A DNA stretch of 64,000 nt from Petrimonas sulfuriphila (GTDB lineage: Bacteria; Bacteroidota; Bacteroidia; Bacteroidales; Dysgonomonadaceae), in contig CP073276.1 in assembly GCA_038561985.1 (NCBI GenBank), forward strand, positions 2,108,001 to 2,172,000, read 5' to 3'. Positions 24,001 to 42,636 of this stretch are shown piece by piece (within the stretch, counting starts at the first letter, position 1; the number at the start of each line of letters is the position of its first letter). The position numbers and the translations under genes were made by a program. The notes beneath the pieces are model-generated. The model worked only from the letters and a program-made list of their open reading frames with translations, did not search any database and was not told the origin of the DNA.

Positions 24001-24150
24001 AGCCAATTAGCACATACAAAACACACATAATCAATCTGATACCACAAACAAATGCACTAATTGTGCTAATTATTTAAACGTTAATGCGTGCTTTATGCTA
24101 TTATTTGCGTGATAAGTGCAGATAATAATTATTGATATATCTCAAATTTG
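24001..24150 (+). promoter_or_regulatory. Regulatory module, copy 1 (upstream of the SPFH gene)
   Basis: Bases 24001-24100 are identical to 42487-42586, and the next 50 bases align without gaps at about 70%. The module holds an AATTAGCAC...GTGCTAATT inverted repeat and two GCGTG half-sites 21 bp apart (24086 and 24107). A CAAATTTG box (24143-24150), close to the -7 consensus, lacks a good -33 box. The layout suits a promoter activated by an AraC-type regulator. The SPFH start is 48 bases downstream. Confidence 0.65.
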
Positions 24151-24198
24151 CAATAAAGGAATTTGAAAAATAAAATCAATAATTAAAAGCAAAAAGCT

Positions 24199-25347
24199 AT
24201 GGCACTTTTCAACAAAATCAAACAAAAAGCATTCGGTGAATTTATTGATATTATCGAATGGACAGATGACACGAGCGATACCATGATTTGGCGTTTTCCA
24301 CGTTACAATTCTGAAATCAAAAATGGAGCACAGCTCACGGTACGCGAAACGCAGGTGGCGGTGTTGGTAAACGAAGGACAATTTGCGGATGTGTTTCAGC
24401 CTGGTCGCCATGAGCTAACCACCTCCAACATGCCCATCCTCACCACCATTCGTGGTTGGAAGTATGGCTTCAATTCGCCTTTCAAGGTGGATGTATATTT
24501 TGTAAACACCAAGCAGTTTTTGAATCAGCGTTGGGGAACGGCAAACCCTATTATGATGCGCGACCCTGAATTTGGTCCCATCCGCTTGCGTGCATTTGGT
24601 TCATACAACTTCCGTGTACAGGAAGATCCCATTCCATTTATAAAAAATGTGGCAGGCACAAGTGGCGAGTTCACCACAGAAGGCATAAGCGAGCAGCTTC
24701 GCAATTTTGTGATAACCAAGTTTACCGACTATTTGGGCGAATCTAAAATAGCCGCATTAGATTTGGCAGCCAATATGAATGAGTTTTCGCAAGAACTGAC
24801 CATCGGTCTCAAGGATGACTTTGCTGAATATGGTATCGATCTGACCCGTTTTTTGGTAGAGAATATTTCGTTGCCAGAGGCTGTGGAAGAGGCATTAGAC
24901 CGCCGCACAAGCATGGGCGTGATTGGCAATATGACCGCTTATACCCAGATGCAGTTTGCAGATTCGTTGAAAGATTCGGCAAACAATCCCGCCGGAGGTG
25001 GCAACCTTGCCGGCGATGCGATGGGTGCAGGTATTGGACTGGCTATGGCAGGACAAATGGCGGGGCAGATGATGAATCCACAAGCAGGACAGTTTCACGG
25101 AGGGCAACAGCCACCTCAACAGGCTGCACCTACTCCACCCCCAATGCCGCAACAAACGACGTATCACGTGGCAGTGGGCGGCGTGCAGCAAGGTCCGTTC
25201 CCTGTATCGCAACTTCAGCAAATGATTCAGCAAGGACAGCTTACCCGCGACACCTTGGTGTGGACAGCCGGAATGCCGGCATGGGCTGCGGCAAACTCGG
25301 TGCAGGAACTATCGCAACTATTTGGTGCGGTGCCGCCACCATTGTAA
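24199..25347 (+). CDS. SPFH-domain protein with C-terminal GYF_2-type domain
   Basis: A 382-residue protein without a signal peptide. The N-terminal two thirds (FGEFIDIIEWTDDTSDTMIWRF, ETQVAVLVNEGQFADVFQPGRHEL, LRAFGSYNFRV) is the bacterial SPFH type often labelled virion core protein-like. A Gly/Met/Gln/Pro-rich linker leads to a GYF_2-like domain at about 320-375 (VGGVQQGPFPVSQLQQMIQQG, then LVWTAGMPAWAAA). It heads the run containing zinc-ribbon, LemA and TPM genes, suggesting an envelope-associated assembly. It has its own regulatory module upstream. Confidence 0.82.
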   Translation: MALFNKIKQKAFGEFIDIIEWTDDTSDTMIWRFPRYNSEIKNGAQLTVRETQVAVLVNEGQFADVFQPGRHELTTSNMPILTTIRGWKYGFNSPFKVDVYFVNTKQFLNQRWGTANPIMMRDPEFGPIRLRAFGSYNFRVQEDPIPFIKNVAGTSGEFTTEGISEQLRNFVITKFTDYLGESKIAALDLAANMNEFSQELTIGLKDDFAEYGIDLTRFLVENISLPEAVEEALDRRTSMGVIGNMTAYTQMQFADSLKDSANNPAGGGNLAGDAMGAGIGLAMAGQMAGQMMNPQAGQFHGGQQPPQQAAPTPPPMPQQTTYHVAVGGVQQGPFPVSQLQQMIQQGQLTRDTLVWTAGMPAWAAANSVQELSQLFGAVPPPL

Positions 25348-25434
25348 ATTAAAAAGAAACCACAAAGTGTTGCTCTGACTATTTCGAAGAGAACACTAAA
25401 GAAATTACAAAACAAACATAACAAACAAATAAAA

Positions 25435-27000
25435 ATGAAATCAACAACTTACAAAGCAATAATGGCTATAGCATTCCTACTTGCATTCAGTTTTACAGTT
25501 GATGCACAAATCAATTTGAAAAAACTTGGCAATCAAGTCAAAAGATCTGCCGAGCAACAAGTAGAGCAAAAGATTAAAGAAAAGGCGGCACGCGAAACCC
25601 GCAAAGCATTAGATCGAGGCGAAAAGAAACTCGATCAAGGCATATCAAATGCCTCATCCGGTGGAGCCTCCTCCGGCCGTAAATCGGTTAGTCAGGGCAA
25701 AATCCCCATAGGATCAAAAACCATTTACGTGTCCTCAAACAATGGTAGCAACCGCAATGACGGCAGTCAATCATCGCCACTCAAAGACTTGCAAAAAGCC
25801 ATTGATGAAGCCCCAGAAGGAGCCCTTATTTGCCTTGCCGAAGGCAATTATCTCGGTTATTTGGATCAGGGATGGGTGAAGGTGAATAAGTATGTTTCTA
25901 TCGTAGGAGGCTATTCCAATGATTTTTCGCAACGCGACCCTATAAAGTTTCGTACTACAATGCAACCAGGACCAGCTCAGATAATGACTTCGGGCAATCA
26001 AGGGGTGATGGATATTCGTGTAGTCGGTAAACGGAATGGTGTAGTGTTAGTAGATGGTATCATTTTCGACCGCGGACAAATCAATGCTTATTTAGCTCCG
26101 ATTTATGACAATCCGGTAGCCGCTGCTCCTGAGGGATGCGAAACAGGACGTATCCTGGTTGTTGGCGAATCGGTAGCGAGCGTGCCTACTATGAAACCCG
26201 AGGGTATGAAAAGCGCATTTCAGCTTATCAGCGGTGAGATGGAGGGAAATTTATCCGTCCGCAACTGTGTATTTCTCAACGGATATCACTTCGCCATACA
26301 GATGGCCTGTAAAGGCGGACATTTTGATATTTACAACAATGTGTTTGTAGCAAACCGAATGGCTGCCTGCGAGGTGCGTGGCGGACTGGCACTACCCAAT
26401 ACATCCAAAATTTCATTTCACGAGAATACCGTGCTGTTTACTTGGTGCCGAGATAAACTCATGGAAGATATGGGATATGGATTCCGCTATATGACAGGTA
26501 TTGACGCCGATGTGTATAACAATATAATCGGCTGTTCCAATTATGGCGGTCTGGATCGCGCTTATGTGGATGCTGATAAATCCAAAGAAGCCAAACGGGT
26601 AACCTCGGCGTGGAACAACTTGTTTTTTGGAAACCGCAATGGCGATATGGTGCTACCATCTGGTGGCGGCGGATGGACATTTGTTTTAGCAAAGAATTTT
26701 GAGGACGTAAACCAATTGCATAAATATGAAAATAATCGTGAGATGAACGAAGCAGAGGTAAATGCCATCAGCAAAAAGATAGATGTGCCTTATTTGAAAG
26801 GATTTATAGGAATAACCGGCTCACAAACCTCTTCTTTTAATCCCAATTCATCAGTAAATCAGTTTCGTTCGGCATTGGGAATGAATATGCAAGGCACTGA
26901 AACTATACGTGTTTCCATGTATGGCAATCGATATCCGTTTGATAAGGTATTTGACCTTTTTGGAGCTGTGAAAGGCTACGGAGCACAAAGGGTTTATTAA
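25435..27000 (+). CDS. Secreted protein with Lys/Glu-rich helix and right-handed beta-helix domain
   Basis: A 521-residue protein with a signal peptide (cut near residue 24, VDA-QI). A charged amphipathic helical stretch of about 45 residues (QVKRSAEQQVEQKIKEKAA...) and a Ser/Gly linker follow. Then comes a DUF1565-like start of a parallel beta-helix (KTIYVSSNNGSNRNDGSQ, SPLKDLQKAIDEAPEGALI) with repeated short Asn/Val-rich turns. Beta-helix proteins of this kind commonly bind or cleave polysaccharides. No catalytic residues could be assigned. It is 87 bases behind the SPFH gene. Confidence 0.7.
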   Translation: MKSTTYKAIMAIAFLLAFSFTVDAQINLKKLGNQVKRSAEQQVEQKIKEKAARETRKALDRGEKKLDQGISNASSGGASSGRKSVSQGKIPIGSKTIYVSSNNGSNRNDGSQSSPLKDLQKAIDEAPEGALICLAEGNYLGYLDQGWVKVNKYVSIVGGYSNDFSQRDPIKFRTTMQPGPAQIMTSGNQGVMDIRVVGKRNGVVLVDGIIFDRGQINAYLAPIYDNPVAAAPEGCETGRILVVGESVASVPTMKPEGMKSAFQLISGEMEGNLSVRNCVFLNGYHFAIQMACKGGHFDIYNNVFVANRMAACEVRGGLALPNTSKISFHENTVLFTWCRDKLMEDMGYGFRYMTGIDADVYNNIIGCSNYGGLDRAYVDADKSKEAKRVTSAWNNLFFGNRNGDMVLPSGGGGWTFVLAKNFEDVNQLHKYENNREMNEAEVNAISKKIDVPYLKGFIGITGSQTSSFNPNSSVNQFRSALGMNMQGTETIRVSMYGNRYPFDKVFDLFGAVKGYGAQRVY

Positions 27001-27097
27001 TGCTGCATTATTTATAGTGTTGCAAACGTTTTGATTAACTATAAATATAATTGGTCTGAAATTAATGAGAATCGTAAATAATTAAAATCACAAAAAA

Positions 27098-28318
27098 ATG
27101 AAAAAAATAATTGCAATTATAATCCTTGTGTTTGCCGTACAGGGTGCGGCGCAAGCGCAAATTGGCAAATTACTCAACAAAGCCAAAGAAACAGTGAAAA
27201 AGGAGACAAAAGAAGCAGCGAGTAATGCAACCGAAGGTGCGTCCAACACAACATTGGATACAAAAATGTCGGTTTCTATGACCGGTCTGTCTGATGAGGT
27301 GCGCCAAGCCGTCGAGAAAATGAAAGACCCAAGCCTGAGGCCACCTACTTGTTGGGCGTATGATTCCTTTGCTGACAAAGGAGGTGCCTCTTTTGACTTT
27401 GAAAAAGAAAATGCAAATCCAAAGCCACTCGACAAGATGAATCATTATGAATTTGTACTACGTATTTATCGTTTTTCGTCTGAGGAGTTGGAGGCTATAA
27501 AAAAACAAATAGAAGACAGAAATAACGATAACATATCTATTTATGAGGCTCTATTTACACCCGGCACATTTAGTATGAAATCAGATGTGGGAAAACTATT
27601 TACCGATAGTGAAAAATTCAGTGCAGAACAAAATATAAAAAAAGAGTCCGAACTTTATGAACACTACATTGGCGTTCTTAAAAGCTATGTAACGCAACGA
27701 TATGAAGTTGAGAAAGTGGGAGAAAATAGATTTACCTTAAAATCGTTACCCTTAGGAATGAACAGTATCAGAAATATAGATGGGAAACTGCACTTCGTAA
27801 TTTACGATGATTATGGAACCCCCATAATTACGCCCGCTAAAGCAGATATATACGATTATGAGAGAGCTCAATTAATTGGTATTCGCAGATTACTTGACCG
27901 TAGAGACCAATCATTGCAGTGGGATGAACATAATTTTGCGAATATTGTAATTTCAAGTATGGCGGAAGGACAAATAAACTCATTGGCTAACCAAGAAAAA
28001 CTACCCATACCCGCTTCGCAGATGAACAATCCTGCATTGAAAGCCAAAATGCTTGAACTTGCACGCCAAGCATACCCATCGTGGGATATCAAAGAACTCG
28101 TAATTATAGAATCGGCATGGCGGGTTGAAAAAAACGCACTCGGACAAATCATCCACCGCCGAATCAACACCAAAATTATCCTACCAAACGGCTCTGGCGG
28201 ATACACTATGCGTACACTCAGTTTTATTGAGCCTTATGCGGGTAGCGACAAGTATGGTGCGGTGGAAGCCTTCGGCATTGGCACAGATGACAGGGCGGTA
28301 AATTATACAGGAAAATAA
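27098..28318 (+). CDS. Secreted protein of unknown function with Lys/Glu/Ala-rich N-terminal helix
   Basis: A 406-residue protein with a signal peptide (MKKIIAIIILVFAVQGAAQA-QI). A LEA-like charged helix (KLLNKAKETVKKETKEAASN) resembles the one in the preceding beta-helix protein. The rest is a soluble alpha/beta region with no motif I recognise. The final part, with a hydrophobic strand followed by RRINTKIILPNGSGGY, looks like a regular globular domain. It is the third gene of the SPFH run. Confidence 0.6.
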   Translation: MKKIIAIIILVFAVQGAAQAQIGKLLNKAKETVKKETKEAASNATEGASNTTLDTKMSVSMTGLSDEVRQAVEKMKDPSLRPPTCWAYDSFADKGGASFDFEKENANPKPLDKMNHYEFVLRIYRFSSEELEAIKKQIEDRNNDNISIYEALFTPGTFSMKSDVGKLFTDSEKFSAEQNIKKESELYEHYIGVLKSYVTQRYEVEKVGENRFTLKSLPLGMNSIRNIDGKLHFVIYDDYGTPIITPAKADIYDYERAQLIGIRRLLDRRDQSLQWDEHNFANIVISSMAEGQINSLANQEKLPIPASQMNNPALKAKMLELARQAYPSWDIKELVIIESAWRVEKNALGQIIHRRINTKIILPNGSGGYTMRTLSFIEPYAGSDKYGAVEAFGIGTDDRAVNYTGK

Positions 28319-28331
28319 AAAAAACAGTACA

Positions 28332-28871
28332 ATGAGAAAAATAATTCTACTTACAGTTATAGTTGCAGCATTTATCCTTAATGGATGCGGTGGAAGCAGC
28401 TCACAACCAAATTTTAAAGATATGGATGAAATAGAAAAACTAACCAAAGAGCAGTTTGCTCAAGAGTCAGCGGCAATTTATGCCCGTGTGTTTCAGGAAG
28501 TCGGAAACCTGCTTAATAAACATTCAAAAATAGATGCTAGTTTTGAAAAGGAGATCGATAAACTATATGACAGCTCTGCAAAGCAGATGATTGAATACGG
28601 AAAAGTCCTCGCCAAAAAAGACGAAGAGACGCGTCAAGATTACATAATGACTAGTGCTATTGCTTCATGGGATGCGTTAGACAAATTAGATCCTAAAGTT
28701 ACAGCAAATACTGAAAAACAGTTAGACGAAAGACAACATGAGTTTGAAACTTACGCAAGTGAAAATTTGGAACGAAAGTTTGACGATTTGTTCTCAATAA
28801 TGGATTTTTTGAATTTTGAGACACTTAAAGAACAACGTCCCCTAAGCGCTAAAGAATTTGGGATTGAGTAA
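28332..28871 (+). CDS. Putative lipoprotein, helical
   Basis: A 179-residue lipoprotein with lipobox AAFILNGC (Cys19). The mature part is almost wholly alpha-helical and highly charged (KLTKEQFAQESAAIYARVFQ, HEFETYASENLERKFDDLFS). It starts 13 bases after the previous gene and is surely co-transcribed. No family is recognised. Confidence 0.65.
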   Translation: MRKIILLTVIVAAFILNGCGGSSSQPNFKDMDEIEKLTKEQFAQESAAIYARVFQEVGNLLNKHSKIDASFEKEIDKLYDSSAKQMIEYGKVLAKKDEETRQDYIMTSAIASWDALDKLDPKVTANTEKQLDERQHEFETYASENLERKFDDLFSIMDFLNFETLKEQRPLSAKEFGIE

Positions 28872-28945
28872 TGGTGCTGGTTGATTCATAATGTACTGCT
28901 TCTTTAAATACATCAATAAATCGAATCTTGATTAAACTAAATTCT

Positions 28946-30055
28946 ATGGAAATGAAAAATGGTACAATGACTGAAATAAAACAACCTATAACCGATGCTT
29001 TGCAGACAAAATGCAAAGCGTGTGGTGGCATAATGCAGTACTCACCTGCCGATGAAGATTTGAAATGCGTGTATTGTGGAAAGAGCGCAGAGCTCGATAA
29101 AACAGCCGCCGAAATAGAAGAAAACGATTTCAACTATTGGAAAGACCGTGCCAATGAAAACAACGAGGATCAAACCGTAGAAGTTTCTGAAATAAAATGC
29201 CGGCAATGTGGCGCCAATACTACATTGGCTCCCAATATTTCGGCAGCAAAATGCGTGTTTTGTTCTACGCCTCTTATATTAGACGAAGCATCCATAAAGC
29301 GTTTTTGGCAACCGAAATATCTGCTTCCGTTTAAAATAACCGAAAAACAGAGTAGTGCAAATTTCACAAAATGGCTGGGAAAGAAATGGTTTCTGCCATC
29401 GGAGCTAAAAAAAGGAGGAGTGGACAATGAGATGTTCAAAGGTGTATATCTGCCTTTTTGGACCTACGATGCCGATACCTATACCGACTATACCGGCGAA
29501 CGTGGCGAAGACCGTACTGAAACTTCTCGCAACAACAAAGGAGAAGAAGTTCGTCGCACTGTTACAGATTGGTATCCTGCGCGGGGAGATGTATCAGTAT
29601 CTTTTGATGATGTAGTAGTTCCCGCGGCAAAAACACTTCCACCCAAAATTATGAACCAGCTAACCAACTGGGACATGACGAACTGTGTGGCCTATCGGCA
29701 GGAGTTTATGGCGGGGTTTATCACCGAAATTTATCAAATTGATTTCAGAGAAGGAGTGAATAGAGCCAAAGAGAAAATGGATAATGTGATTGATAGTACT
29801 ATCCGCTCTGACATTGGAGGCAACAAACAAAAGGTTAGCAGTAAAAACACACAATACAACAACTTGATGTTCAAACTGCTGCTGTTGCCGATCTGGATCA
29901 GTGCCTTTAAATTCAACGGTAAACTCTATCAATTTGTGGTAAATGGTCGTACCGGGCAGGTTATTGGTGAATATCCAAAAGATAAAACCAAGATTATATT
30001 GCTGATAGCTGCAATAATAGCTGTTATAGCGGCACTGATAATGATGCTTGGGTAA
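28946..30055 (+). CDS. Double zinc-ribbon membrane protein (TFIIB-type ribbon)
   Basis: A 369-residue protein with two zinc ribbons (CX2C...CX2C: Cys23/26/41/44 and Cys85/88/103/106). A conserved middle region (FWQPKYLLPFKI, VYLPFWTYDADTYTDYTGERG) and a single C-terminal membrane anchor (IILLIAAIIAVIAALIMML) follow. Proteins with this build accompany LemA and TPM/SPFH genes in many bacteria, but their biochemical role is unknown. ATGs at 28946, 28952 and 28967 are all possible starts. Confidence 0.72.
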   Translation: MEMKNGTMTEIKQPITDALQTKCKACGGIMQYSPADEDLKCVYCGKSAELDKTAAEIEENDFNYWKDRANENNEDQTVEVSEIKCRQCGANTTLAPNISAAKCVFCSTPLILDEASIKRFWQPKYLLPFKITEKQSSANFTKWLGKKWFLPSELKKGGVDNEMFKGVYLPFWTYDADTYTDYTGERGEDRTETSRNNKGEEVRRTVTDWYPARGDVSVSFDDVVVPAAKTLPPKIMNQLTNWDMTNCVAYRQEFMAGFITEIYQIDFREGVNRAKEKMDNVIDSTIRSDIGGNKQKVSSKNTQYNNLMFKLLLLPIWISAFKFNGKLYQFVVNGRTGQVIGEYPKDKTKIILLIAAIIAVIAALIMMLG

Positions 30056-30078
30056 CAGAAAAAAAAATAAAAGAAAGT

Positions 30079-30669
30079 ATGGGTAGAAAAATAATCATTT
30101 GGTTCGTAATATTCACAGTATTACTGTTGATTGTTCCCTTTTTTTGGGGGACATACAACAGGCTAATTAAACGCGAAGAGAACGTGAAAATGGCTTGGTC
30201 GCAAGTAGAAAATCAATACCAGCGGCGAGCCGATCTGATAATGAACTTGGTTGAAACCGTTAAGGGATATGCTTCGCACGAGCAAGAAACATTCAGACAG
30301 GTGATTGAAGCAAGAGCCAATGCCACAAATACAAACATCGAGAGCGACCAGCTCAATGCAGAGAATTTACAGCAATTCAGTGAAAAACAAGCAGAGCTGA
30401 GCTATGCACTGTCTCGATTAATAATGATTGTAGAAAACTATCCCGATTTGAAAGCCAACGAAAATTTCATCATGCTGCAAGGACAGCTGGAAGGCACTGA
30501 AAATAGAATAGGGGTGGAGCGAAAGCGATTCAACGAAACAGTGAGAGTTTACAACACTTACCGAAGACGATTTCCAAAAAATCTGGTTGTCGGATTGTTT
30601 GGGTTCGAGAAACAAGATTATTTTGAATCTGCTCCCGACAGTGATACAAAACCTGATGTGAAATTCTAA
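30079..30669 (+). CDS. LemA family protein
   Basis: A 196-residue protein with an N-terminal membrane anchor (residues 7-25) followed by the LemA helical bundle (YNRLIKREENVKMAWSQVENQYQRR, DLIMNLVETVKGYASHEQ, ENRIGVERKRFNETVRVYNTYRRRFP). LemA proteins are coiled helical proteins of the envelope, without known enzymatic activity, and usually neighbour TPM-domain genes as here. It is 23 bases behind the zinc-ribbon gene. Confidence 0.93.
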   Translation: MGRKIIIWFVIFTVLLLIVPFFWGTYNRLIKREENVKMAWSQVENQYQRRADLIMNLVETVKGYASHEQETFRQVIEARANATNTNIESDQLNAENLQQFSEKQAELSYALSRLIMIVENYPDLKANENFIMLQGQLEGTENRIGVERKRFNETVRVYNTYRRRFPKNLVVGLFGFEKQDYFESAPDSDTKPDVKF

Positions 30670-30696
30670 TATAACAACTTAAAAGATAAAACAGGT

Positions 30697-31764
30697 ATGA
30701 GAAATTCAATTTTGAAATCTTTGACAATAGTGTTTCTGCTGTTGCTTAATTTAGTTTCGTATGCACAAGTTCAATACACGGTGAGAGAGGTGCCCAATGT
30801 GCAGCTAAGAGATGCTCAACAGTTCATTTCAGATCCTGAGCAGGTGATCACATACAATGACAAGGAAATACTGAACAAAAAACTATTTGAGATAAGAGAA
30901 TCATTAGATGTTCAGACGGCAATTGTCGTAATTCCTGATATTGATGAGCAATACACTTCTGCAAAAGAATTTGCAACAGAATTATTCGGCTATTGGGGAT
31001 TAGGCGATCAAAATTCAGACAACGGATTGCTTATCTTGCTTCTGACAGCTGATGGGAAAAGAGAAATTGTATTTGAAACGGGTTACGGAATAGAAAGCAC
31101 ATTGAGTGATGGCACATCAAAACTGATTCAAGCTCAAAAAATGATACCGTTTCTGAAGGAAGATGCCTATGGAGAAGGACTGATTGCGGGGGTGGATGAG
31201 ATAGAAAAAGTTCTTAAGGGAACTTCTGAACTTATAAAAGAACCCATTGACGCAAAAAGCATGACTTTGCCAATTATCATCTGGCTGGTATTAGGTGTAG
31301 GAGCATTAGCTTTTAATGAGAGCAGAAAGAAAAAGAAAGTATCTGAAGAATCTTCACCCTATTTAGGTGCCATCAAGCAGAAATCAGCTGGTGGATTGGG
31401 ATGTTTGCTTGCCGTATTATTTTTTCCTGTATTTATCCTATTCAGACTTTTCAAGGGTGGTGCCAAGAATGCAAAGATTGATTGTCAGAGTTGCAAATCA
31501 ACTGGCACTGTCAGCTTGAAAAAGGGAGAACCCATAATCAAGCAACAGGCAATACCTGGACAGGATGGCATGAAAGAGTATGAGTTCGTTTGTTCTAAAT
31601 GTGGATTTGTGCATAAGGAGTTGGTTCCTTATAAATATGTGAAACCACAAACAGAATCTACAAACAGCGGAAATAATACCACTTACCGAAGCGGTAATTT
31701 TACTAAGGGAGGTTCGTGGGGAGGAGGAAAAAGTGGAGGCGGCGGAGCATCCACTAAGTTTTAA
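30697..31764 (+). CDS. TPM-domain membrane protein (YgcG family)
   Basis: A 355-residue protein with a signal peptide (residues 1-24) and a TPM domain at about 45-175 (FISDPEQVITYNDKEILNKKL, QTAIVVIPDID, LFGYWGLGDQNSDNGLLILL, GYGIESTLSDG). A membrane segment follows at about 190-205, with a second hydrophobic helix near 232-252. A CX2C...CX2C zinc ribbon (KIDCQSCKSTG, FVCSKCGFV) and a Gly/Ser-rich tail end the protein. The TPM domain acts in photosystem II repair in plants; in bacteria the role is unclear. Partner of LemA. Confidence 0.9.
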   Translation: MRNSILKSLTIVFLLLLNLVSYAQVQYTVREVPNVQLRDAQQFISDPEQVITYNDKEILNKKLFEIRESLDVQTAIVVIPDIDEQYTSAKEFATELFGYWGLGDQNSDNGLLILLLTADGKREIVFETGYGIESTLSDGTSKLIQAQKMIPFLKEDAYGEGLIAGVDEIEKVLKGTSELIKEPIDAKSMTLPIIIWLVLGVGALAFNESRKKKKVSEESSPYLGAIKQKSAGGLGCLLAVLFFPVFILFRLFKGGAKNAKIDCQSCKSTGTVSLKKGEPIIKQQAIPGQDGMKEYEFVCSKCGFVHKELVPYKYVKPQTESTNSGNNTTYRSGNFTKGGSWGGGKSGGGGASTKF

Positions 31765-31799
31765 AATTGAACTATTTACTAATTTAAAAAACAAAAATT

Positions 31800-32012
31800 A
31801 TGAACACAAATTCGATTATTGAAAATTTCAAAGAGATTGTAACTAACAATTCAAATTATCGAGAAGAGAAATTACGAGTATCATTACCAGAGAAAGTGGG
31901 AGCAACAACATACGCTGCACCACACATCGAAATTATCGACATTGAACTGGAGCAAAACATCCTCCAAAGTGGAAGTAGTGATTTGCCAAGTATGCCTGGT
32001 GAAGGTTGGTAA
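31800..32012 (+). CDS. Small 70-residue protein with conserved-looking C-terminal GEGW
   Basis: MNTNSIIENFKEIVTNNSN opens the protein and a hydrophobic/acidic block (APHIEIIDIELEQNILQSGS) precedes the end LPSMPGEGW. There is no signal peptide or membrane segment. Short Bacteroidales proteins with an acidic core and Gly-Trp-type ends often lie next to fimbrillin-like or secreted-protein genes, as here (fimbrillin-like gene 91 bases downstream). A precursor-peptide or accessory role is possible, but nothing shows it directly. Confidence 0.6.
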   Translation: MNTNSIIENFKEIVTNNSNYREEKLRVSLPEKVGATTYAAPHIEIIDIELEQNILQSGSSDLPSMPGEGW

Positions 32013-32102
32013 CAGATAATTAGTAATTACAAACAGGGGACTAATTGGCAAACAGTTACACTATAATGCTCTCAAGTCAAACCGCACAAATCGTAAAAAA
32101 AA

Positions 32103-33804: not shown

Positions 33805-33836
33805 CCGATAATTTCTTTTTTAATTAAGACTGATAC

Positions 33837-34148: not shown

Positions 34149-34199
34149 GTAATAATAATTAATTTATTGGTGTCCGCTAAAACTCAGAAAAGAGCATAA

Positions 34200-34247
34200 C
34201 GCATCTCTCAATCACTTATGAATAGGTGATTGAGAAGTGCGTTTTTT
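34200..34247 (+). repeat. Hairpin near the IS4 relic end
   Basis: CGCATCTCTCAATCAC pairs with GTGATTGAGAAGTGCG with one internal mismatch, followed by six Ts. It lies just outside the transposase stop codon and is probably the terminal region of the IS4-family relic or a read-out terminator. Confidence 0.55.
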
Positions 34248-34259
34248 ATTCCAAGCCCT

Positions 34260-34554: not shown

Positions 34555-34641
34555 TGTATATATTAATTAAATAATACCCCATATTCTAATCGAAAAGTAT
34601 ACCACTTACAACCATGAATGGATTCTATCCGTTCTTAACAA

Positions 34642-36130
34642 ATGATAAGCATGTATACAAAACAAGAAATCATTATTGACAGCTTTCGGCAGGGTAAGAG
34701 CCAGCGCACCATTGCCCGCGATTTGCAGATCAATCGTAAGACTGTAAAAAAGTACATTTTAGAGCATGAAGCATTATTACAGTCTGTTTGCTCTAAAGAA
34801 GCCGCTCAGTCCATCGCTTTATCAGACAAGCCTGCTTATAATATGACTGTACCTCGCCAAAAAGTCAAGCTAACAACCGATGTACAAGAGATCATAGATG
34901 AGCTGCTTTCGAAAAACAAAGTGAAGCTGGAAGATGGATTACGCAAGCAGATGATGAAAAAGAAAGACATCCATGAAGAACTTCTTCGACAGGTTTTTGA
35001 TGTTGGGTACTCCACTGTTTGCAATTATATCAGGTTTAAAGAAAACAGTCAGACCTCAAAAGAAGCATACATCCGTCAGGCATACCTTGCAGGTGATGTA
35101 TGTGAGTTTGACTGGGGAGAAATCAAACTTCTGATAGGTGGTAAACGCACAAGTCTGCATTTAGCCGTTTTCACCTGTGCCTACAGTAATTACCGGTATG
35201 CTTATGTCTATCACCGTCAGGACACACTCTCTTTCATGGAAGCACATACACGCTTCTTCCGTCAGATAGGTGGTGTACACCGGGAGATGGTTTATGATAA
35301 CATGCGGGTTGCTGTTGCAAAACGAAAAAGGTCACGTTGAGCGTAGCGTTGAGTACGTGCGTCGCAAGGCCTTTGCACCCAAAGACAGCTTTGCTTCTGC
35401 GATCGAAGCACAGGAGTGGCTAGACTCCATTTTAAAGAAGCTTAATGCCACGAAGCAGCAGGGAACCGGCAAGAGTGCCGGGGAGCTTTTGACGGAAGAA
35501 AAGAAGGTTCTGGTAAAACATCCATCATCGGTAATGATTTGCAGTGAACAGATTCAGTTAAGGGCAGATAAATATGCAACTGTGAGTTATCAGGGCAATC
35601 GTTATTCGGTACCCGACAATCTCGTAGGGTTGTTTGTTGATGTTAGCGTCAGAAGCAGACAGATGCATATCTACTCTCAAAACAAACGGGTTGCCATTCA
35701 TCATAGAAGTTACAAGTCTCATGACTGGGTTATTGATATAGAGCATTACCTTGACACATTTAAGAAAAAGCCGGGAGCCCTTGTCGGGAGTCAGGCTCTG
35801 GCAGGCAACCATTACCTTCGGAATCTTTATTTTAATCTCTTCCAAAATGAATCGCGAGAGTTTATAGAGCTTCTATCATACTGTCGTGATCATATGGTAA
35901 GTGAAGAAAAGCTTGAAGAGTCAGTGAAGCGATTACTCAGCACCTGTGGTAATCATGCCACTCTCGAGAAGTTGCGTGCTCTTTTGGGGAATAAGTCTTT
36001 TGTAGCACCAACAGTAGAGACAAAAGACAATATAACCCTAAAGGCTAAAGAACAGCTATCGTGGATTACAGAATTAATGCATCAAACAAACGACAATGGA
36101 CAATATAAACAATCAAATAACAGAATATAG
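34642..36130 (+). pseudogene. istA: istA transposase with internal 98-base deletion
   Basis: The first part (MISMYTKQEIIIDSFRQGKS... to VYDNMRVAVA) and the second (NEKGHVERSVEYVRRKAF... onward) are in different frames. Compared with the intact copy at 54755-56293, about 98 bases are missing at about 35321, removing the stretch between the second catalytic Asp (VYDNM) and the catalytic Glu region (EKGHVE). The helix-turn-helix and FDWGE survive. The protein cannot be made as one active chain. Confidence 0.88.
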
Positions 36131-36851
36131 CAAGGCTCTCAGACTGCCTGTCTTCAGGCGTGATTATAAAGAGCTTGCCCTCGAGGCTGCCAAAGACAGA
36201 ATCGATTATGAGGAATATCTCCTTAAACTTATGGAGCGTGAATGGGAGGCTAAGTCGGAGAATCGTAAAAAGTCACAGATAAGAAATGCACGGTTTCCTT
36301 CTAAAATGTATCTTACCGATCTTGAGCGTGAACAGCTGCCTCAGGGTGCCAGAGAGAAACTGCCGCTTCTTGAGAGATTAGACTTCATAGCTTCAGCACA
36401 GAATGTGATACTCGCGGGAAACCCGGGTACGGGAAAAACCCATATCGCGATAGGGCTTGGACTTAAAGCCTGTATGCAGGGGTATAAAGTACTGTTTACA
36501 ACCGTACACCGTCTGCTTACCCAGCTGCGAGAGTCGCAATCTGAACGCACCTTAAAACAGGTAGAAAACCAGTTTGAAAAGTATGACCTGGTAATATGTG
36601 ATGAGTTTGGTTATATCTCTTTCGATAAACAGGGAGCAGAGCTGTTGTTTAACCATCTCTCTTTGAGGGTGGGAAGAAAATCAACCATCATAACAACAAA
36701 CTTAGGTTTTGACAGATGGGAAGAGATCTTCGGAGATCCTGTTCTTACGGCAGCACTTGTAGACAGGCTTACCCATAAGGCATATCTTGTAAATATGAAC
36801 GGAGTATCATACAGATTGAAAGAAACAAAAAAAATGATGACAGAGCAATGA
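36096..36851 (+). CDS. istB: IS21 helper ATPase IstB, copy 1
   Basis: A 251-residue AAA+ protein of the DnaC/IstB type: GNPGTGKTHIAIGLGLKAC (Walker A), LVICDEFGYISFDKQGAELLF (Walker B) and LVDRLTHKAYLVNMNG near the end. It assists target capture by IstA. It overlaps the end of istA by 35 bases. Intact by itself, but its partner istA is broken. Confidence 0.93.
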   Translation: MDNINNQITEYSKALRLPVFRRDYKELALEAAKDRIDYEEYLLKLMEREWEAKSENRKKSQIRNARFPSKMYLTDLEREQLPQGAREKLPLLERLDFIASAQNVILAGNPGTGKTHIAIGLGLKACMQGYKVLFTTVHRLLTQLRESQSERTLKQVENQFEKYDLVICDEFGYISFDKQGAELLFNHLSLRVGRKSTIITTNLGFDRWEEIFGDPVLTAALVDRLTHKAYLVNMNGVSYRLKETKKMMTEQ

Positions 36852-36878
36852 AGAAAAAAGTAAAAATAAGAACACCCG

Positions 36879-36914
36879 TTAACTCTTGGTGGCGGTACCG
36901 CCACCAAGAGTTAA
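36879..36914. repeat. 36-bp perfect palindrome in IS21 copy 1
   Basis: An 18-base arm starting TTAACTCTTGGTGG and centred on GGCGGTACCGCC reads the same on both strands. It lies 27 bases after istB and before the right end. IS21 copy 2 has a palindrome with the same core but different outer arms (60613-60666), so structure rather than sequence is conserved. Confidence 0.85.
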
Positions 36915-37008
36915 ATAAACTTTGAGATTAAATTAAAATGGTATACTTTTGGAATGGAATAATGGTATACTTTTGGGTTAATATAAACATAAAACAGAGT
37001 TTTGGTAG

Positions 37009-37287
37009 TATATCCTTGTTTACATTATTGTTAGTGTAGTATTATCTATGTTTATAAATATCCTGGGTGGAGTAAAACTGCTTAGGATGTTATTTATGAT
37101 TATTCAGGGATTATTCGCTTTAGCTTTATTGATACCTTCAATTGCAGTTGGAGTACGCCGTATGCACGATATTGGCAAAGGTGGAGGATGGATTCTGGTA
37201 AATATGATTCCACTTATTGGATCTATATGGTTTATTCTATTGGCTATCAAAGATAGTGAGCCAGGTCCGAATAGATTTGATAAATAA
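37009..37287 (+). pseudogene. DUF805-family membrane protein, 5' truncated by IS21
   Basis: The remaining 92 codons include two hydrophobic helices and the DUF805 hallmark VGVRRMHDIGKGGGWILVNM, then IPLIGSIWFILLAIKDSEPGPNRFD. The N-terminal part is missing and the reading frame runs back to a stop at 37006, next to the IS21 end at 36989. An internal ATG at 37048 could still give a 79-residue peptide. Confidence 0.7.
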
Positions 37288-37302
37288 TATAAATTTACTT
37301 TT

Positions 37303-38079
37303 ATGAAAAAGAAGAGTATAACTAGGTATTACATAATAGTGGCTATTCTTTCAGTGTTGGTAATGTCTTGAAGAGGTGGCACTTCATCTGAGAAATCTAA
37401 AAACCCACAAATCACCATTACAACAGAAGTAGAGGTTGGCACACTATTTTCGTTTTATTTTGAGCGGAGCGCCAATGATACCGCAGCCATTTGGGTTGAT
37501 TTGAATAATGATAAAGTTCAGGATGAAGGGGAACTGATTTATCCCGATGAGCTAACAGAATTTAAAGGAATCTTAGATGCCAATACCTTCACCATTTATG
37601 GTGATGTAAGCTATATTAACTTGAATGTGAAGAAAATAACCAATTCGGATATTTCAAAATGCCCAAACCTAAAGGAGTTACAAGCAACTAGTAATAAACT
37701 TACATCCATAGACTTAACAAAGAATGTTCAGTTAACCGATTTGCAAATAGCAAATAATGAGTTGACAGAATTGGATTTGAGTAATAATGCAGAGCTAAAA
37801 GAACTTTGGATTGATAGTAATAAAATCAAAACGATTAAAGCAAAGAAATTCAATCAATTAAGAAGAATTATTTGTCAAGATAATGAAATCAGTGCAAAAT
37901 CGATGATTGAACTTTTCAAAGCAGTACAACACGTTGAAAAACCCGGAGGTGCTGTAGCAGAAGTGAGTTATGACACCGAAGAAGATTTGAATGAGGTGCC
38001 GCAAGAAGCGGTGGATATTGCTAAAAGCAAAAACTGGCGACTTATAAAAACTACAAGAGAGGGTGAAATAGAGTATTAG
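37303..38079 (+). pseudogene. Leucine-rich repeat lipoprotein with TGA at the lipobox cysteine
   Basis: Translation gives a signal peptide MKKKSITRYYIIVAILSVLVMS, then TGA (37369-37371) exactly where the lipobox Cys is expected. It continues in frame as a mature lipoprotein (RGGTSSEKSKNP...) with leucine-rich repeats (LKELQATSNKLTSIDLTKN, LTDLQIANNELTELDLSNN, LKELWIDSNKIKTI) to 38079. A TGT/TGC-to-TGA change is the simplest reading. A start at ATG 37501-37503 or nearby would yield only a cytoplasmic fragment. It is 4 bases upstream of the beta-grasp-like gene. Confidence 0.72.
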
Positions 38080-38083
38080 CCAT

Positions 38084-38284
38084 ATGAAAGTCATTGTAAA
38101 TAGAACAGAGGTTGAACTCTTCAGCGGCGCAAAAGTCGCTGATGCAGTTCGAGCATATTATGTTCGTCGAAAGCTCAAAATTCCAAATCCATTACCTCCT
38201 GTTGAGGATCGATACGGAAACAGTGTAGCCCACGATGGCAGGCTGTCAGAGGGGAACAGATTAAGAGTTCAATTAAAAAAATAG
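38084..38284 (+). CDS. Small beta-grasp-like protein, copy 1
   Basis: 66 residues: MKVIVNRTEVELFSGAKVAD, a helix (AVRAYYVRRK), a strand with DRYGNSVA and the end DGRLSEGNRLRVQLKK. The strand-strand-helix-strand-strand order resembles ThiS/MoaD/TGS-type beta-grasp domains, but without a C-terminal Gly-Gly. A paralogue at 45880 precedes a 5'-nucleotidase gene. Here the next gene seems lost: an ATG at 38289 opens a reading (MKNN) that is cut within a few codons by IS30 sequence. Function unknown. Confidence 0.7.
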   Translation: MKVIVNRTEVELFSGAKVADAVRAYYVRRKLKIPNPLPPVEDRYGNSVAHDGRLSEGNRLRVQLKK

Positions 38285-39241
38285 AAAAATGAAAAATAAT
38301 TGATTAAACATAAACATTGGCGATTCGTATTTGAATCTTTTTCTGGGTCGATTATTGAGTTGATATTCCACAAAATTAATATAATCTGTAGGAATACAAT
38401 CAAAATCAACTTTTTTCGGTATATATTGCCTGACGAGGCGATTAAAATTTTCGTTCGAACCTCTTTGCCAGCTTGCATATGGTTTAGCAAAGAAGAAATC
38501 GATATTTAAATGTTTGGCTACCAATTCATGAGCGGCAAACTCTTTCCCGTTGTCAGATGTGATTGTTTTAAGGAAAGGTTTCCATTCCATCAAACAATCA
38601 ATGGTAGCCGTTGCAAGTTGCTGAGCATCTTTTCCATCTAATTTACGAAGTTTTCCGAATCCGGTAGCTCTGTCATTGATGGTTAAGATAGCGCCTTTGT
38701 GATTTTTACCTATAATCAGGTCAATTTCTAAATCACCAAAGCGTTCGCGCAGTTCAACTTCAGGCGGTCTTTGAGAGATGTCTGTGCGATTGGGGATTAT
38801 ACCCCGTTTATCGTAAATCACACTTCGCTTTTTATAGCGACGTCCTCTGTTTCTAAGATCAAGATACAGCGTTCCTTTTTTTCGCTTATCTTGCCAAATA
38901 AACTGATAGATTCGCTCGTGTGACACACATTTATCCCCGTTCTTTTTGGCAACACCTGCAATTTGTTCAGGACTGTGTTTTAGACGCAATCTATCTCTGA
39001 CATATTCCTCTACTTCAGGTGTGAAGGTTCTGGTTTTAGCTTTATACTCCTGACGCTTCAGGTATTTACGATGAGCTAAATCATCTCTGTAAACGCCGGA
39101 TCGGGCATCTGCATTGTGGCGGATCTCCCGGCTGACAACTGATTTATCTTTTTTAATAACAAGGGCTATTTCTTTTTGATTATAGCCGTTTTGCAACATC
39201 GATGCAATAGTATATCTTTGTTCCCTGGTTAAATGACTCAT
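38273..39241 (-). CDS. IS30-family transposase (C-terminus altered)
   Basis: A 322-residue protein from the ATG at 39241 (MSHLTREQRYTIASMLQNGY, then NQKEIALVIKKDKSVVSREI). The helix-turn-helix precedes the DDE core (GDLEIDLIIGKNHKGAIL, TITSDNGKEFAAHE, QRGSNENFNRLVRQYIPK). The last residues (FNQLFFIFLFF) look foreign, as if the IS end was lost at about 38298 and the frame runs into flanking DNA. It overlaps the stop of the beta-grasp-like gene on the other strand. Activity is doubtful. Confidence 0.85.
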   Translation of the reverse strand: MSHLTREQRYTIASMLQNGYNQKEIALVIKKDKSVVSREIRHNADARSGVYRDDLAHRKYLKRQEYKAKTRTFTPEVEEYVRDRLRLKHSPEQIAGVAKKNGDKCVSHERIYQFIWQDKRKKGTLYLDLRNRGRRYKKRSVIYDKRGIIPNRTDISQRPPEVELRERFGDLEIDLIIGKNHKGAILTINDRATGFGKLRKLDGKDAQQLATATIDCLMEWKPFLKTITSDNGKEFAAHELVAKHLNIDFFFAKPYASWQRGSNENFNRLVRQYIPKKVDFDCIPTDYINFVEYQLNNRPRKRFKYESPMFMFNQLFFIFLFF

Positions 39242-39375
39242 AAATGTGAACTTTAGGCGGAGAACAATTATAGTCATTTTTTCCATCGGAGCAAAGGGGG
39301 GGAGTCTTTCCTCCCTAGCTCTGAAAAAATAATCTATACTATCCTGCCGTCAAAGTTGCATTTACTAATTGAATT
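38298..39375 (-). mobile_element. IS30-family element, left end apparently truncated
   Basis: The transposase gene and a right flank with GCCGTCAAAGTTGCATTTAC-type end sequence (about 39350-39370) are present. A matching inverted repeat was not found on the left, where the sequence joins the start of a truncated gene (ATG at 38289). End positions are approximate. Confidence 0.55.
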
Positions 39376-39556
39376 TACAAATGTAATATATGGATGGAAT
39401 TTTAAATGAAAAAGTAATAATCTGTTCATGAATAGAATAAACGCGCAAGTAAACAATATCTTTGAGAAAAGGAGGAAAAACTATTTACCTGGTTTACTAC
39501 TCCCTAAAATATTTCAATACAGAGAAAAAACAAGACCAAATACCTGTTTGTTTGCT
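39242..39556. other. Region between IS30 and the hybrid regulator
   Basis: This holds the IS30 right end and the upstream region of the hybrid regulator gene. An in-frame ATG at 39428 exists, but the 43 extra codons would precede the signal anchor and do not look coding. No clear promoter was seen. Confidence 0.4.
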
Positions 39557-42439
39557 ATGAAAATTAGGATTAATAGATATAAAGCACCAACCTCACTTGC
39601 TATACTTGTTGTGTTGCTGATAATTGGTTTTTTCTGCGATTGCTCAGATGCTCAAAAACAGTTGCAGCAAGCGGAAGCAAATCGAAAAGAGATTTCCGCC
39701 GTTTTATACAGAAACAGATACAGTGAAGATTCTCTGAAACTTTTGCTGAAACAATATATTGATGAGGAGAACGATTTTGCTGTAATGCTGGTTTATAAGC
39801 AGTTAGGTGTATTTATGCGTGAAAACTCGCGTTTCACCGAAGCAATAAATAATCATCAGGAAGAGTTGGCACTTGCTATGAAGCTCAATGATACCATCGA
39901 AATAGTGCAGGCATACAATAATCTGGGAACAGACTTCCGACGGATCGGCTCGCATGGCGAAGCATCAGATTATCATTATCAAGCATTGGATTATGCTGAA
40001 GCATATTCACAGGCACATGTGCCGGGAGTTGGAATGAAAAACAGAGTTGTTTCTCTAAATGGAATCGGAAACGTGGGCCTGACACTTGGATATTATGACC
40101 ATGCTGAAAAATATTTCAGAATGGCGTTGGAAGATGAGCTGAAGCTGAAAAGCAATATAGGTCAGGCCATTAACTATGCCAATATTGGAGCAATTTTTGA
40201 AGAGCGGGGACAGTTAGACTCAGCACATGCCTATTATAATAAATCATTGGAGCATAATCGAATAGCCAAATCGGACATGGGAATTGGACTATGCCTTATT
40301 CATTTAGGCAAGCTTTATGAAAGAGAGCAAAAATATGAAAAAGCGAAAGATGAGTATATTCAGGCATACGACCTCATGCATCAAATATCCGACAGATGGC
40401 ACTGGTTGGAAGCATGTATCTCAATTGCCAGAATTAATTTGTTAGACAATAATATTTCTGAATTCGAACACTATATCAGTCTTGCAGAGCAAACAGCAAA
40501 TGAAATAAAATCGCCAGAACATTTGGCCGAAATATATTTGCTTAAGCACGACTTTGATGTGAGCACACAAGATTTCAAAAAAGCTCTTGAGCACTATCAA
40601 TTGCAATCACTCATGCGAGACAGCGTGCAGGGATTGCAAAAAACTAATAGGTTTATAGACGTGCGCCTAAGTTACGAGCAAAACAAAAACATTAGGAACA
40701 TTCAGAGAATTGAGGCGGAGAATAAATCCAAACAACGGTCGACGCATTTGACATTATATTTCACCTTGGCTCTGTCGCTTGTAGGAATTATCATCACAGC
40801 ACTACTATATTATGCATACAAACAGCGCGTTAGGAGCAACAAAACGTTAAAACAATTGGAGCTAACCAGAAGCGATTTTTTCACAAATATCACACACGAA
40901 TTTAGAACTCCACTAACCGTTATAAAGGGTTTTAATGACCTATTAATGAGCAGCAAACACTTATCCGAAAAAGAAAAGCATGTTTATAGATCAGCCATAG
41001 ACAGACAAAGTAATAATTTGCTTAATCTCGTAAACCAACTTCTTGATATTGCCAAACTTAAATCGGGAAAAGAGGCTCCCAACTGGAAACGTGGCGACAT
41101 AATTTCGTATCTTAGAATGTCGGCCGAAACATTTAAGCTTTTTGCAAAAGAGAAAGATGTAAACCTTATTTTTTATTCTGTGATAGAGTCACAAGAAATG
41201 GATTTCATTCCTTTCTATATCGATAAAATTATTGGCAATCTTTTATCAAATGCTATAAAACATACAAAAGAGGGAGATAAAATAGACTTTGTGGTTTCAA
41301 AAGGACAACGCCCCGACACCATTAAGATCAAAATATCAGACACAGGAGATGGAATACCAAAGAGTGACTTGAAGCGTATCTTCGAGATGTTTTATCAGAG
41401 TACCAATAGTCAAAATGAATCGGGTAACGGCATCGGCCTGGCATTCACCAAGATGATGGTGGAAAAGATGAAAGGAGAAATTGAGGTTGACAGTGAATTG
41501 GGCATAGGCTCATCTTTTATTGTGACTTTACCATTAAAAAATAATAACCTAACAAACATTGAGCCACTTCTTGAGCAAAAGAGTTCTTTCTCGCTCTCGA
41601 AGATCCAACAAAGGGTTGGAACTAAAGAGACCAACTTATATACTGATATTAATGAAGAAGGAAATACTAATGAACAGCACATTATCTTGATTGTTGAGGA
41701 CAATAGAGATGTCAACACATATATTAAAACAATACTGAGTGAAAAATATAGGGTGTTAGTTGCCCGAAATGGCGAGGAGGGCTTGAAACTTGCAAAAATG
41801 CATATCCCCGACCTTGTGGTTACGGATGTGATGATGCCTGTGATGGATGGCACACAGCTATGCTGCGAAATGAAACAGAATATTATGCTCAATCATATTC
41901 CAATAGTTATGCTTACGGCAAAGAGTAGCGACGAAGACCGTATAAAGGGCTTGAGATGCGGTGCCGAGGCATATATTAAGAAACCGTTTGATACAGAGGA
42001 GCTGTTCATTACTATCCATAATATACTGGAAAGTCGCAAAACGCTGATTGAAAAATTTATGGAGTCTGCCAATAACATAACAACCGACACTGTTAATAGA
42101 GCAGAGAGTGAAGCAAATCTCAAATATCTACATGTCATAACAGGTATTATTCTTACTGAAATGCAAAACCCTGATCTAAACACAGCCTATCTTGCTGAGA
42201 GAATGTCGGTAAGCACATCGCAGCTCAATCGAAAAATGAATGGTATAACGGGCAAGTCAACATTGTCTTATATTTTGCATGTGAAGCTAAACAAGGCAAA
42301 GAAGATGCTTCAGGAGACTTCTCTCCCTATGTCGGAAGTTGCTCATGAATGTGGATTTTATGATGCCAATTATTTTTCACGCATATTCAAAAAAGAATTT
42401 GGAATTTCCCCATCGCAATTTCAGAAGATACATGTTTAG
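39557..42439 (+). CDS. Hybrid two-component regulator: TPR sensor, histidine kinase, receiver, AraC output
   Basis: 960 residues. A signal anchor (NRYKAPTSLAILVVLLIIGF) is followed by a periplasmic region of about seven TPR units (NNLGTDFRRIGSHGEASDYH, ANIGAIFEERGQLDSAHAYY). A membrane segment lies at about 400-420, then HisKA with NITHEFRTP (His447) and a HATPase with N (NLLSNAIKHT), G1 (DTGDGIP) and G2 (GNGIGLAF) boxes. A receiver with Asp757 (LVVTDVMMP) and a double helix-turn-helix AraC domain (MSVSTSQLNRKMNGITGKS, FYDANYFSRIFKKEFGISPS) end it. All key residues are present. It lies between two runs sharing one promoter module and is their best candidate regulator. Confidence 0.93.
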   Translation: MKIRINRYKAPTSLAILVVLLIIGFFCDCSDAQKQLQQAEANRKEISAVLYRNRYSEDSLKLLLKQYIDEENDFAVMLVYKQLGVFMRENSRFTEAINNHQEELALAMKLNDTIEIVQAYNNLGTDFRRIGSHGEASDYHYQALDYAEAYSQAHVPGVGMKNRVVSLNGIGNVGLTLGYYDHAEKYFRMALEDELKLKSNIGQAINYANIGAIFEERGQLDSAHAYYNKSLEHNRIAKSDMGIGLCLIHLGKLYEREQKYEKAKDEYIQAYDLMHQISDRWHWLEACISIARINLLDNNISEFEHYISLAEQTANEIKSPEHLAEIYLLKHDFDVSTQDFKKALEHYQLQSLMRDSVQGLQKTNRFIDVRLSYEQNKNIRNIQRIEAENKSKQRSTHLTLYFTLALSLVGIIITALLYYAYKQRVRSNKTLKQLELTRSDFFTNITHEFRTPLTVIKGFNDLLMSSKHLSEKEKHVYRSAIDRQSNNLLNLVNQLLDIAKLKSGKEAPNWKRGDIISYLRMSAETFKLFAKEKDVNLIFYSVIESQEMDFIPFYIDKIIGNLLSNAIKHTKEGDKIDFVVSKGQRPDTIKIKISDTGDGIPKSDLKRIFEMFYQSTNSQNESGNGIGLAFTKMMVEKMKGEIEVDSELGIGSSFIVTLPLKNNNLTNIEPLLEQKSSFSLSKIQQRVGTKETNLYTDINEEGNTNEQHIILIVEDNRDVNTYIKTILSEKYRVLVARNGEEGLKLAKMHIPDLVVTDVMMPVMDGTQLCCEMKQNIMLNHIPIVMLTAKSSDEDRIKGLRCGAEAYIKKPFDTEELFITIHNILESRKTLIEKFMESANNITTDTVNRAESEANLKYLHVITGIILTEMQNPDLNTAYLAERMSVSTSQLNRKMNGITGKSTLSYILHVKLNKAKKMLQETSLPMSEVAHECGFYDANYFSRIFKKEFGISPSQFQKIHV

Positions 42440-42486
42440 CAATTAGCTTTTAGCTATTAGCCAACAGCTAAAAGCCAAAAGCCAAC
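42440..42486 (+). repeat. Intergenic word-like repeat and hairpin after the regulator
   Basis: Repeated short words TTAGC, AGCTAAAAGCC and AGCCAACAGC occupy these bases. TTAGCTTTTAGCT and AGCTAAAAGCC can pair, making a likely terminator for the regulator gene. The shared promoter module starts immediately after. Confidence 0.5.
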
Positions 42487-42636
42487 AGCCAATTAGCACA
42501 TACAAAACACACATAATCAATCTGATACCACAAACAAATGCACTAATTGTGCTAATTATTTAAACGTTAATGCGTGCTTTATGCTAATTTCTGCGTGATA
42601 TTTACAGACATATATAATGGATTAATCTCAATTTTG
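42487..42636 (+). promoter_or_regulatory. Regulatory module, copy 2 (downstream of the hybrid regulator)
   Basis: Bases 42487-42586 are identical to 24001-24100, and alignment continues without gaps to 42636. The two GCGTG half-sites are kept 21 bp apart (42572 and 42593), as are the inverted repeat and the -7-like CAATTTTG (42629-42636). Differences concentrate between these elements. The first gene of the second lipoprotein run begins 33 bases downstream. Confidence 0.65.

Follow-up and report, generated by a model that had tools for sequence, protein, structure and literature searches.

Hybrid two-component regulators (HTCSs) are common in Bacteroidota, and the operator work considered here, as far as the available texts go, concerns polysaccharide loci. 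For Bacteroides thetaiotaomicron, which has 36 hybrid regulators, the parts of the regulon study available to us (Ravcheev et al. 2013, PMC3878776) describe kinase, receiver and AraC-type domain in one chain, regulators often encoded beside their targets, and operators of direct repeats averaging 21 bp apart, which for the mannan HTCSs consist of 16-bp sites with a 5-bp spacer. According to the available part of a second paper, the HTCS receiver restrains the AraC domain until it is phosphorylated (PMC11253607). Neither a third half-site nor operators of HTCSs with TPR repeats were described in the literature searched, of which the coverage was partial.

Here we report the analysis of a locus of Petrimonas sulfuriphila that lies in a window of 64,000 bp (the whole stretch of DNA analysed; contig CP073276.1, positions 2,108,001 to 2,172,000). 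It shares with the B. thetaiotaomicron systems the domain chain, the 21-bp repeats and a regulator beside its putative targets, but differs from what the available parts of that study describe (PMC3878776): TPR repeats replace the COG3292 sensor, SPFH/LemA/TPM genes together with nucleotide-hydrolysing or lipoprotein genes stand in place of SusC/SusD targets, and a third site lies 32-33 bp upstream of the two described there. An earlier note on this DNA had proposed that one promoter module occurs twice and that the hybrid regulator between the copies drives both downstream gene runs as one regulon. With corrected anatomy, this proposal is supported by model scores, by geometry and by loci of relatives that combine an HTCS of 51-57% identity with an SPFH gene. 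Judging from the sequences, both copies are very probably operator-promoters of the adjacent TPR-type regulator, through which runs 1 and 2 would be switched on together. The elements of the two copies are as follows.

24000..24150, + strand, operator-promoter copy 1 (sequence identity and operator model)
24053..24068, + strand, copy 1 half-site 0, TGCACTAATTGTGCTA (half-site model)
24085..24100, + strand, copy 1 half-site 1, TGCGTGCTTTATGCTA, with GTTAA just 5' (half-site model)
24106..24121, + strand, copy 1 half-site 2, TGCGTGATAAGTGCAG (half-site model, 12.7 bits)
24143..24150, + strand, copy 1 -7 box, CAAATTTG (37 bp from the half-site 2 start)
42486..42636, + strand, operator-promoter copy 2 (sequence identity and operator model)
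42539..42554, + strand, copy 2 half-site 0 (half-site model)
42571..42586, + strand, copy 2 half-site 1 (half-site model)
42592..42607, + strand, copy 2 half-site 2, TGCGTGATATTTACAG (half-site model, 4.4 bits, weaker than in copy 1)
42629..42636, + strand, copy 2 -7 box, CAATTTTG (spacing)

The copies are identical at 101 of 101 bases (24000-24100 and 42486-42586), the base just before being different, and to the right of this block 35 of 50 bases match without gaps, much as the earlier note had stated (100 identical bases and about 70% over 50 more). BLAST of the window against itself aligned the pair over 153 columns at 90.9% identity (E 1.3e-52). The module proper, the 101-base block of identity, ends exactly where half-site 1 does. 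Within the diverged 50 bp that follow, half-site 2 is kept at 13 of 16 positions and the -7 box at 7 of 8, with 15 of 26 kept elsewhere. The genome of the organism (3,833,268 bases) contains two strong matches to the module, and the other 38 among the matches listed are short and weak (E 0.03 or worse). A DNA search of 101 genomes of the family (own included; at most the best 8 candidates per genome scored) gave a match at E 0.001 or better in seven, own included. Because the match in five of these covers 27-35 bases of the A+T-rich leader alone, only the own genome and genome G004 carry the module itself. Collections of plasmids and phages yielded no match, and the single Rfam match over 22500-62000 is a tRNA.

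In both copies, the half-sites start 32 and then 21 bp apart, and the -7 box lies 37 bp past the start of half-site 2. Each half-site is 16 bp long and consists of TGCGTG followed by a second part (ATGCTA, GTGCAG or TTACAG). The pair of GCGTG half-sites described previously has the reported 21-bp spacing in both copies, but its members measure 16 bp rather than 5; the 'CAGA at -35 distance' covers the tail of half-site 2 and the single base that follows it, and the -7-like box is present and better kept, with its exact position corrected to that listed above. The half-site 32 bp upstream of half-site 1 was absent from that description. Since the GCGYG-N16-GCGYG pair alone is uninformative (13 occurrences in the own genome vs 18 for a reversed control), a longer footprint was built. 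On the + strand, no other single site in the window scores as high as half-site 2 of copy 1. An inverted repeat within the module (AATTAGCACA...TGTGCTAATT) was found by eye.

The regulator and the two runs comprise the following features.

39557..42439, + strand, hybrid regulator, TPR - HisKA - HATPase - receiver - AraC (HTH_18) (Pfam, translation)
24199..25347, + strand, first gene of run 1, SPFH/Band_7_1 with a GYF_2 domain (Pfam)
25435..31764, + strand, rest of run 1: p521, p406, p179, p375, LemA, TPM-domain protein (Pfam)
32103..33134, + strand, p343, lipoprotein-like, possibly outside run 1 (lipobox scan)
42670..42960, + strand, first gene of run 2, 96-aa frame (self-BLAST, translations)
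43481..48447, + strand, run 2: nucleoside hydrolase, LRR lipoprotein, p103, 5'-nucleotidase lipoprotein, DUF6935 lipoprotein (Pfam, lipobox scan, NCBIfam below cut-off)

The frame of the regulator is open from 39428, and the Met at 39557 comes before the first membrane segment. HisKA, HATPase_c, Response_reg and HTH_18 lie on one polypeptide of 1003 aa (Pfam), and a direct-repeat operator with a 21-bp period occurs not only in both copies but also in four genomes belonging to two further genera. By domains and operator layout, the system of the window is an HTCS regulon and, as read from its sequence, would work like one. Copy 2 begins 46 bases past the stop codon of the regulator. COG3292 is a sensor domain of the Reg_prop type in Pfam terms. 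In the Pfam search the regulator has TPR repeats and no Reg_prop match, and assignment to the polysaccharide-locus HTCSs of Bacteroides was rejected, as sensor and targets differ. FimS of Porphyromonas works with a separate regulator. The TPR-kinase part of the window protein (residues 223-702) aligns with the FimS model of NCBIfam (NF053520), at 138 bits vs a cut-off of 600, so that membership was rejected. For HTCS receivers, the available part of the relevant paper describes an S/CHIP inhibition motif (PMC11253607); the window receiver has HIP at what seems to be the same place, placed by eye, and reads NHIP there, and since this starts with N rather than S or C, inhibition of the S/CHIP type cannot be assumed.

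The start codon of the SPFH gene lies 48 bases from the -7 box of copy 1. Among the other run-1 products, p179 is lipoprotein-like by eye, and p375 is zinc-ribbon-like, with domain matches below cut-off; p343, which has no Pfam match, lies 338 bp past the TPM gene. A simple lipobox search selected 5 of 12 run-2 proteins and 1 of 8 run-1 proteins, and a few more are lipoprotein-like by eye. The former description of both runs as lipoprotein-rich fits run 2 better, given that the single run-1 protein is p343, perhaps beyond run 1. No SusC/SusD match (Pfam) was obtained for the 8 run-1 and 10 run-2 proteins searched (p103 and p252 of run 2 left out), and no PspA match for the 8 run-1 proteins. 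As far as the available texts describe it, the pspA-ydjGHI operon of Bacillus subtilis likewise combines an SPFH/band 7 protein with a zinc-ribbon protein (YdjG, compared here with the below-cut-off p375; PMC8581546, PMC9239133), but run 1 has LemA and TPM and no PspA (Pfam), and phylum and regulator differ, which makes this an analogy only.

Directly after operator copy 2, the 96-aa frame is shortened relative to a 201-aa paralogue at 48527-49132, and the surrounding regions (42656-43393 and 48513-49249) are a duplicated gene with 88.7% DNA identity. Within lipoprotein genes of run 2, 51416-52129 and 53585-54298 (714 bp) are 99.6% identical, a recent duplication or conversion. In genome G004 both module copies keep their order, at a distance of about 15 kb, and the regulator is 96% identical; DNA equivalent to about 43310-46065, which holds the run-2 genes for the nucleoside hydrolase and the LRR protein, is missing there. 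The shortened first gene after copy 2 and this absence suggest that run 2 may be decaying.

Within the family, two further genera (g11 and g9) include five genomes with SPFH genes of 84-92% identity, and in four of them (G093, G094 and G102 of g11; G114 of g9) an HTCS of 51-57% identity lies 0.3-2.5 kb upstream of an SPFH gene, the SPFH identity being 83-86% in this comparison; in the fifth (G090, g11), the HTCS beside the SPFH gene is only 35% identical and the operator is a weak two-repeat version (score 9.2). Downstream of the HTCS, all four genomes have three direct 16-bp half-sites whose starts are separated by 33 and 21 bp (the g11 form is CGCGTGAAAAGTCCTA, changed at single positions in G094 and G102; the G114 form is TGCGCRAAWARTVCWA), and a TAnnTTTG box, vs CAnnTTTG in the window, 37 bp past the start of the third; the GTTAA before half-site 1 is common to them and both window copies. 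The contigs of G093 and G094 extend far enough to show the gene order along the whole locus, which runs HTCS, one to three small genes, SPFH, DUF6935-like, p375, LemA, TPM, then nucleoside hydrolase, DUF6935-like, p103 and 5'-nucleotidase. The order p375-LemA-TPM is common to these and the window; no p406, p179 or LRR gene was found in the G093 and G094 loci, and DUF6935 is placed differently in the window. Because the regulator of G093 and G094 is followed by a single locus with genes from both runs, the ancestral state would be expected to be a shared regulon.

In UBA5488 (Marinilabiliaceae), which was outside the training set, an HTCS of 59% identity is followed by the operator, an SPFH gene (56%) and p521 (80%); the operator scores 52.2 on the broader model described below, with half-site 1 starting 130 bp before the SPFH match. 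This SPFH gene may be a paralogue rather than an orthologue. The SPFH gene follows the operator directly in UBA5488 and G114, and after one to three frames in g11. The G114 locus carries two consecutive SPFH genes (L089 5327, 6747), each with its own operator, the second gene being the closer relative. The expectation that the module itself would recur beside this regulator and SPFH genes in related genomes holds for the half-site geometry (G093, G094, G102, G114, UBA5488) but, as plain DNA, only for the own genome and G004. SPFH genes at E 1e-120 occur in 43 of 393 genomes of the order (own included). At 29 SPFH loci of other families, no HTCS was present within the flank examined (up to 1.5 kb), so the SPFH gene does not need such a regulator in general, and a general placement of the module before SPFH genes was rejected; 17 of the 29 have a p375-like gene.

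Both strands of the window were scanned with a three-site weight matrix trained solely on G093, G102, G094 and G114 and their spacings, a 32-bp as well as a 33-bp spacing of site 0 being allowed after the window was seen. Copy 1 scored 35.2 and copy 2 26.9, compared with 1.0 for the next site of the window and a maximum of 14.7 in 40 Markov sequences of 100 kb (4 Mb). A broader model, built from 8 operators, was applied to the first 380 bases downstream of each HTCS gene. The 28 HTCS loci were reduced to 27 because the L044 gene is cut short, and 15 of the 27 lay above the 99% null level of 1.2 (3000 null stretches), or 14 of 26 distinct loci, since L221 and L037 are the same contig. The 15 include 5 training loci, picked for high scores and scored held out, and 3 that represent the window and G004; the remaining 7 come from 19 plain tests, 4 of them from one same-genus orthologue group. 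The other 12 of 27 have no such operator within 380 bp downstream, UBA5488 being counted as a miss because its operator sits further downstream. The order-wide HTCS search, with the best two candidates per genome, found at least 8 of 295 genomes (own included).

The broader model was also run over 1,652,000 bases (43%) of the own genome, a non-random portion that deliberately included two HTCS-paralogue regions. The window sites at 24085 (49.1) and 42571 (38.9) were among the best, together with an operator at 748163 (45.5) before a stand-alone AraC-domain gene, one at 752173 (26.9) directly behind a 41% identical HTCS paralogue, and sites at 43908 (21.1) and 46589 (13.9, noise level) in a fimbria-type gene region; four runs on second-order Markov null sequence of equal length gave maxima of 14.2-15.3. 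The top five matches and the noise-level sixth fall into three pairs with spacings of 18.5, 4.0 and 2.7 kb, and the operators of G114 are 1.4 kb apart. A search of the 20 kb around the 2.7-kb pair found no HTCS; the closest paralogue known lies at a distance of about 12 kb. At the first of these sites (L143 3908, 43.9 kb) the operator-like sequence precedes DUF3575 and DUF3868/OmpA genes, which we take to have a fimbrial link; the second (L143 6589, 46.6 kb) precedes a 323-aa gene without Pfam match and resembles the site behind the G004 HTCS L053. The 4.0-kb pair belongs to a second HTCS system (L151 7479-12290, about 747.5-752.3 kb of the own genome), with DUF2589 and subtilase genes after the first operator and the stand-alone AraC-domain gene (123 aa) after the second. 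A pattern in which TPR-type hybrid regulators of Bacteroidales have a common fixed-geometry operator-promoter, occurring in pairs, and in which the island-borne regulon has two promoters whose switching is ordered by half-site 2 strength, is a tentative generalisation from these sequences that we consider possible but not yet probable.

The whole locus of regulator and runs sits on a genomic island, with these boundary features.

22679..22764, + strand, tRNA-Ser (TGA), island insertion point (ARAGORN, Rfam, synteny)
22765..61590, no strand, genomic island of about 38.8 kb (missing in same-species genome G009)
23285..23997, - strand, broken transposase remnant abutting copy 1 (stop-to-stop frames; also in G004)

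Synteny with G009 ends at 22764, the last base of the tRNA-Ser, and restarts at 61591, with ~1.3 kb of mostly other DNA between. The absence from G009, the tRNA-Ser boundary, and three tyrosine recombinases with an integrase fragment identify a tRNA-borne island; a second copy of the tRNA end was sought elsewhere in the window and not found. The three recombinases are consecutive (57161-60405) and are presumably arranged as in RIT elements; the integrase fragment (60537-61271) has an arm-binding domain, and both lie near the right end of the island. The transposase remnant, which we take to be IS3-like by resemblance, gave no Pfam match for the one piece scanned and had no counterpart at E 1e-6 in 1.59 Mb of the own genome outside the window. 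From the regulator stop codon to copy 2 (42440-42497), an array of near-7-bp units (AGCTTTT AGCTATT AGCCAAC ...) is visible by eye; its last unit sits within the identity block, and insertion of the transposon may therefore have removed the array from copy 1.

This setting bears on an unlikely alternative, in which the identity was merely left behind by a recent segmental duplication or a gene conversion in the course of an IS-driven rearrangement, and only copy 2, next to the regulator, works. The identity block is flanked by the transposase remnant at left and an abrupt fall to 70% at right, the island twice carries IS21-like genes (with the first IstA spread over two frames), together with an IS30-like transposase (HTH_38 and rve) and other duplications, and copy 2 of G004 differs from the window at 4 of 101 module bases yet is the same from there to the next gene start. 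An inactive copy 1 is, however, hard to reconcile with its score on a model from other genera, which exceeds that of copy 2, with its stronger half-site 2, with a -7 box close before an SPFH gene of the kind that follows the operator in UBA5488, G114 and g11, or with its conservation in G004 as far as readable, a run of N covering the middle. Copy 2 of G004 still scores 22.5 with TGTGTG in half-site 1. Two old promoters homogenised by conversion and a duplication followed by replacement of the right half would both fit the sequences.

Similarly unlikely is a reading of the modules by another AraC-type protein, whether a different HTCS or a stand-alone AraC factor. Related operators of paralogous HTCS systems in the same genome make cross-talk conceivable, one such system having the stand-alone AraC domain behind its second operator, and half-site 1 likewise contains GCGTGA at the HTCSs L049 (41%) and L042 (33%). 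Half-site letters thus track regulator identity imperfectly and, as judged from these sequences, do not alone identify the regulator. The regulator nevertheless adjoins copy 2 in both genomes with the module, its closest relatives adjoin the closest operators, and TGCGTG gives way to TGTTC or TGTTTG in the own genome's 41% paralogue and in the G001 and G002 orthologues of that paralogue. The view of the module as a mobile or structural repeat (a MITE or an RNA element) with no connection to the regulator can be practically dismissed: the inverted repeat and the adjoining transposase remnant would suit it, but the wide mobile spread that the earlier note had named as counter-evidence is not what the searches gave (two genomic copies, only G004 besides among 101 family genomes, no plasmid or phage match, and a tRNA as sole Rfam match), and a dispersed, many-copy MITE-like repeat was rejected.

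In the preferred reading of one regulator acting on both promoters, a signal read by the N-terminal TPR/membrane part would lead to phosphorylation of the receiver in the same chain and free the AraC-type domain, which would bind the tandem 16-bp sites 1 and 2, 21 bp apart on one DNA face; site 0, 32 bp upstream, could hold a further monomer. RNA polymerase would be recruited to the -7 box, 37 bp past the site 2 start, by activation from just upstream. Run 1 (SPFH, zinc-ribbon-like, LemA, TPM) would, by resemblance, serve membrane or envelope maintenance, and run 2 (nucleoside hydrolase, 5'-nucleotidase, surface lipoproteins) would be co-activated with it. Copy 1, with the stronger half-site 2, may respond at lower levels of active regulator, and the weaker site of copy 2 (4.4 vs 12.7 bits) predicts a higher threshold for run 2. 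Historically, an ancestral locus with one operator may have been split on the island, each half keeping or gaining a copy.

To known HTCS operators this locus adds a third half-site, a fixed -7 box distance, a TPR sensor, new target genes, promoter pairs and an island setting. The copies differ at and around half-site 2 and are identical upstream, which makes them a natural pair for probing how half-site 2 relates to promoter strength. The proposed regulon links SPFH/LemA/TPM genes with nucleotide-hydrolysing surface proteins as one response, and a readable operator of the TPR group would allow targets to be predicted from sequence without knowledge of a regulator's signal.
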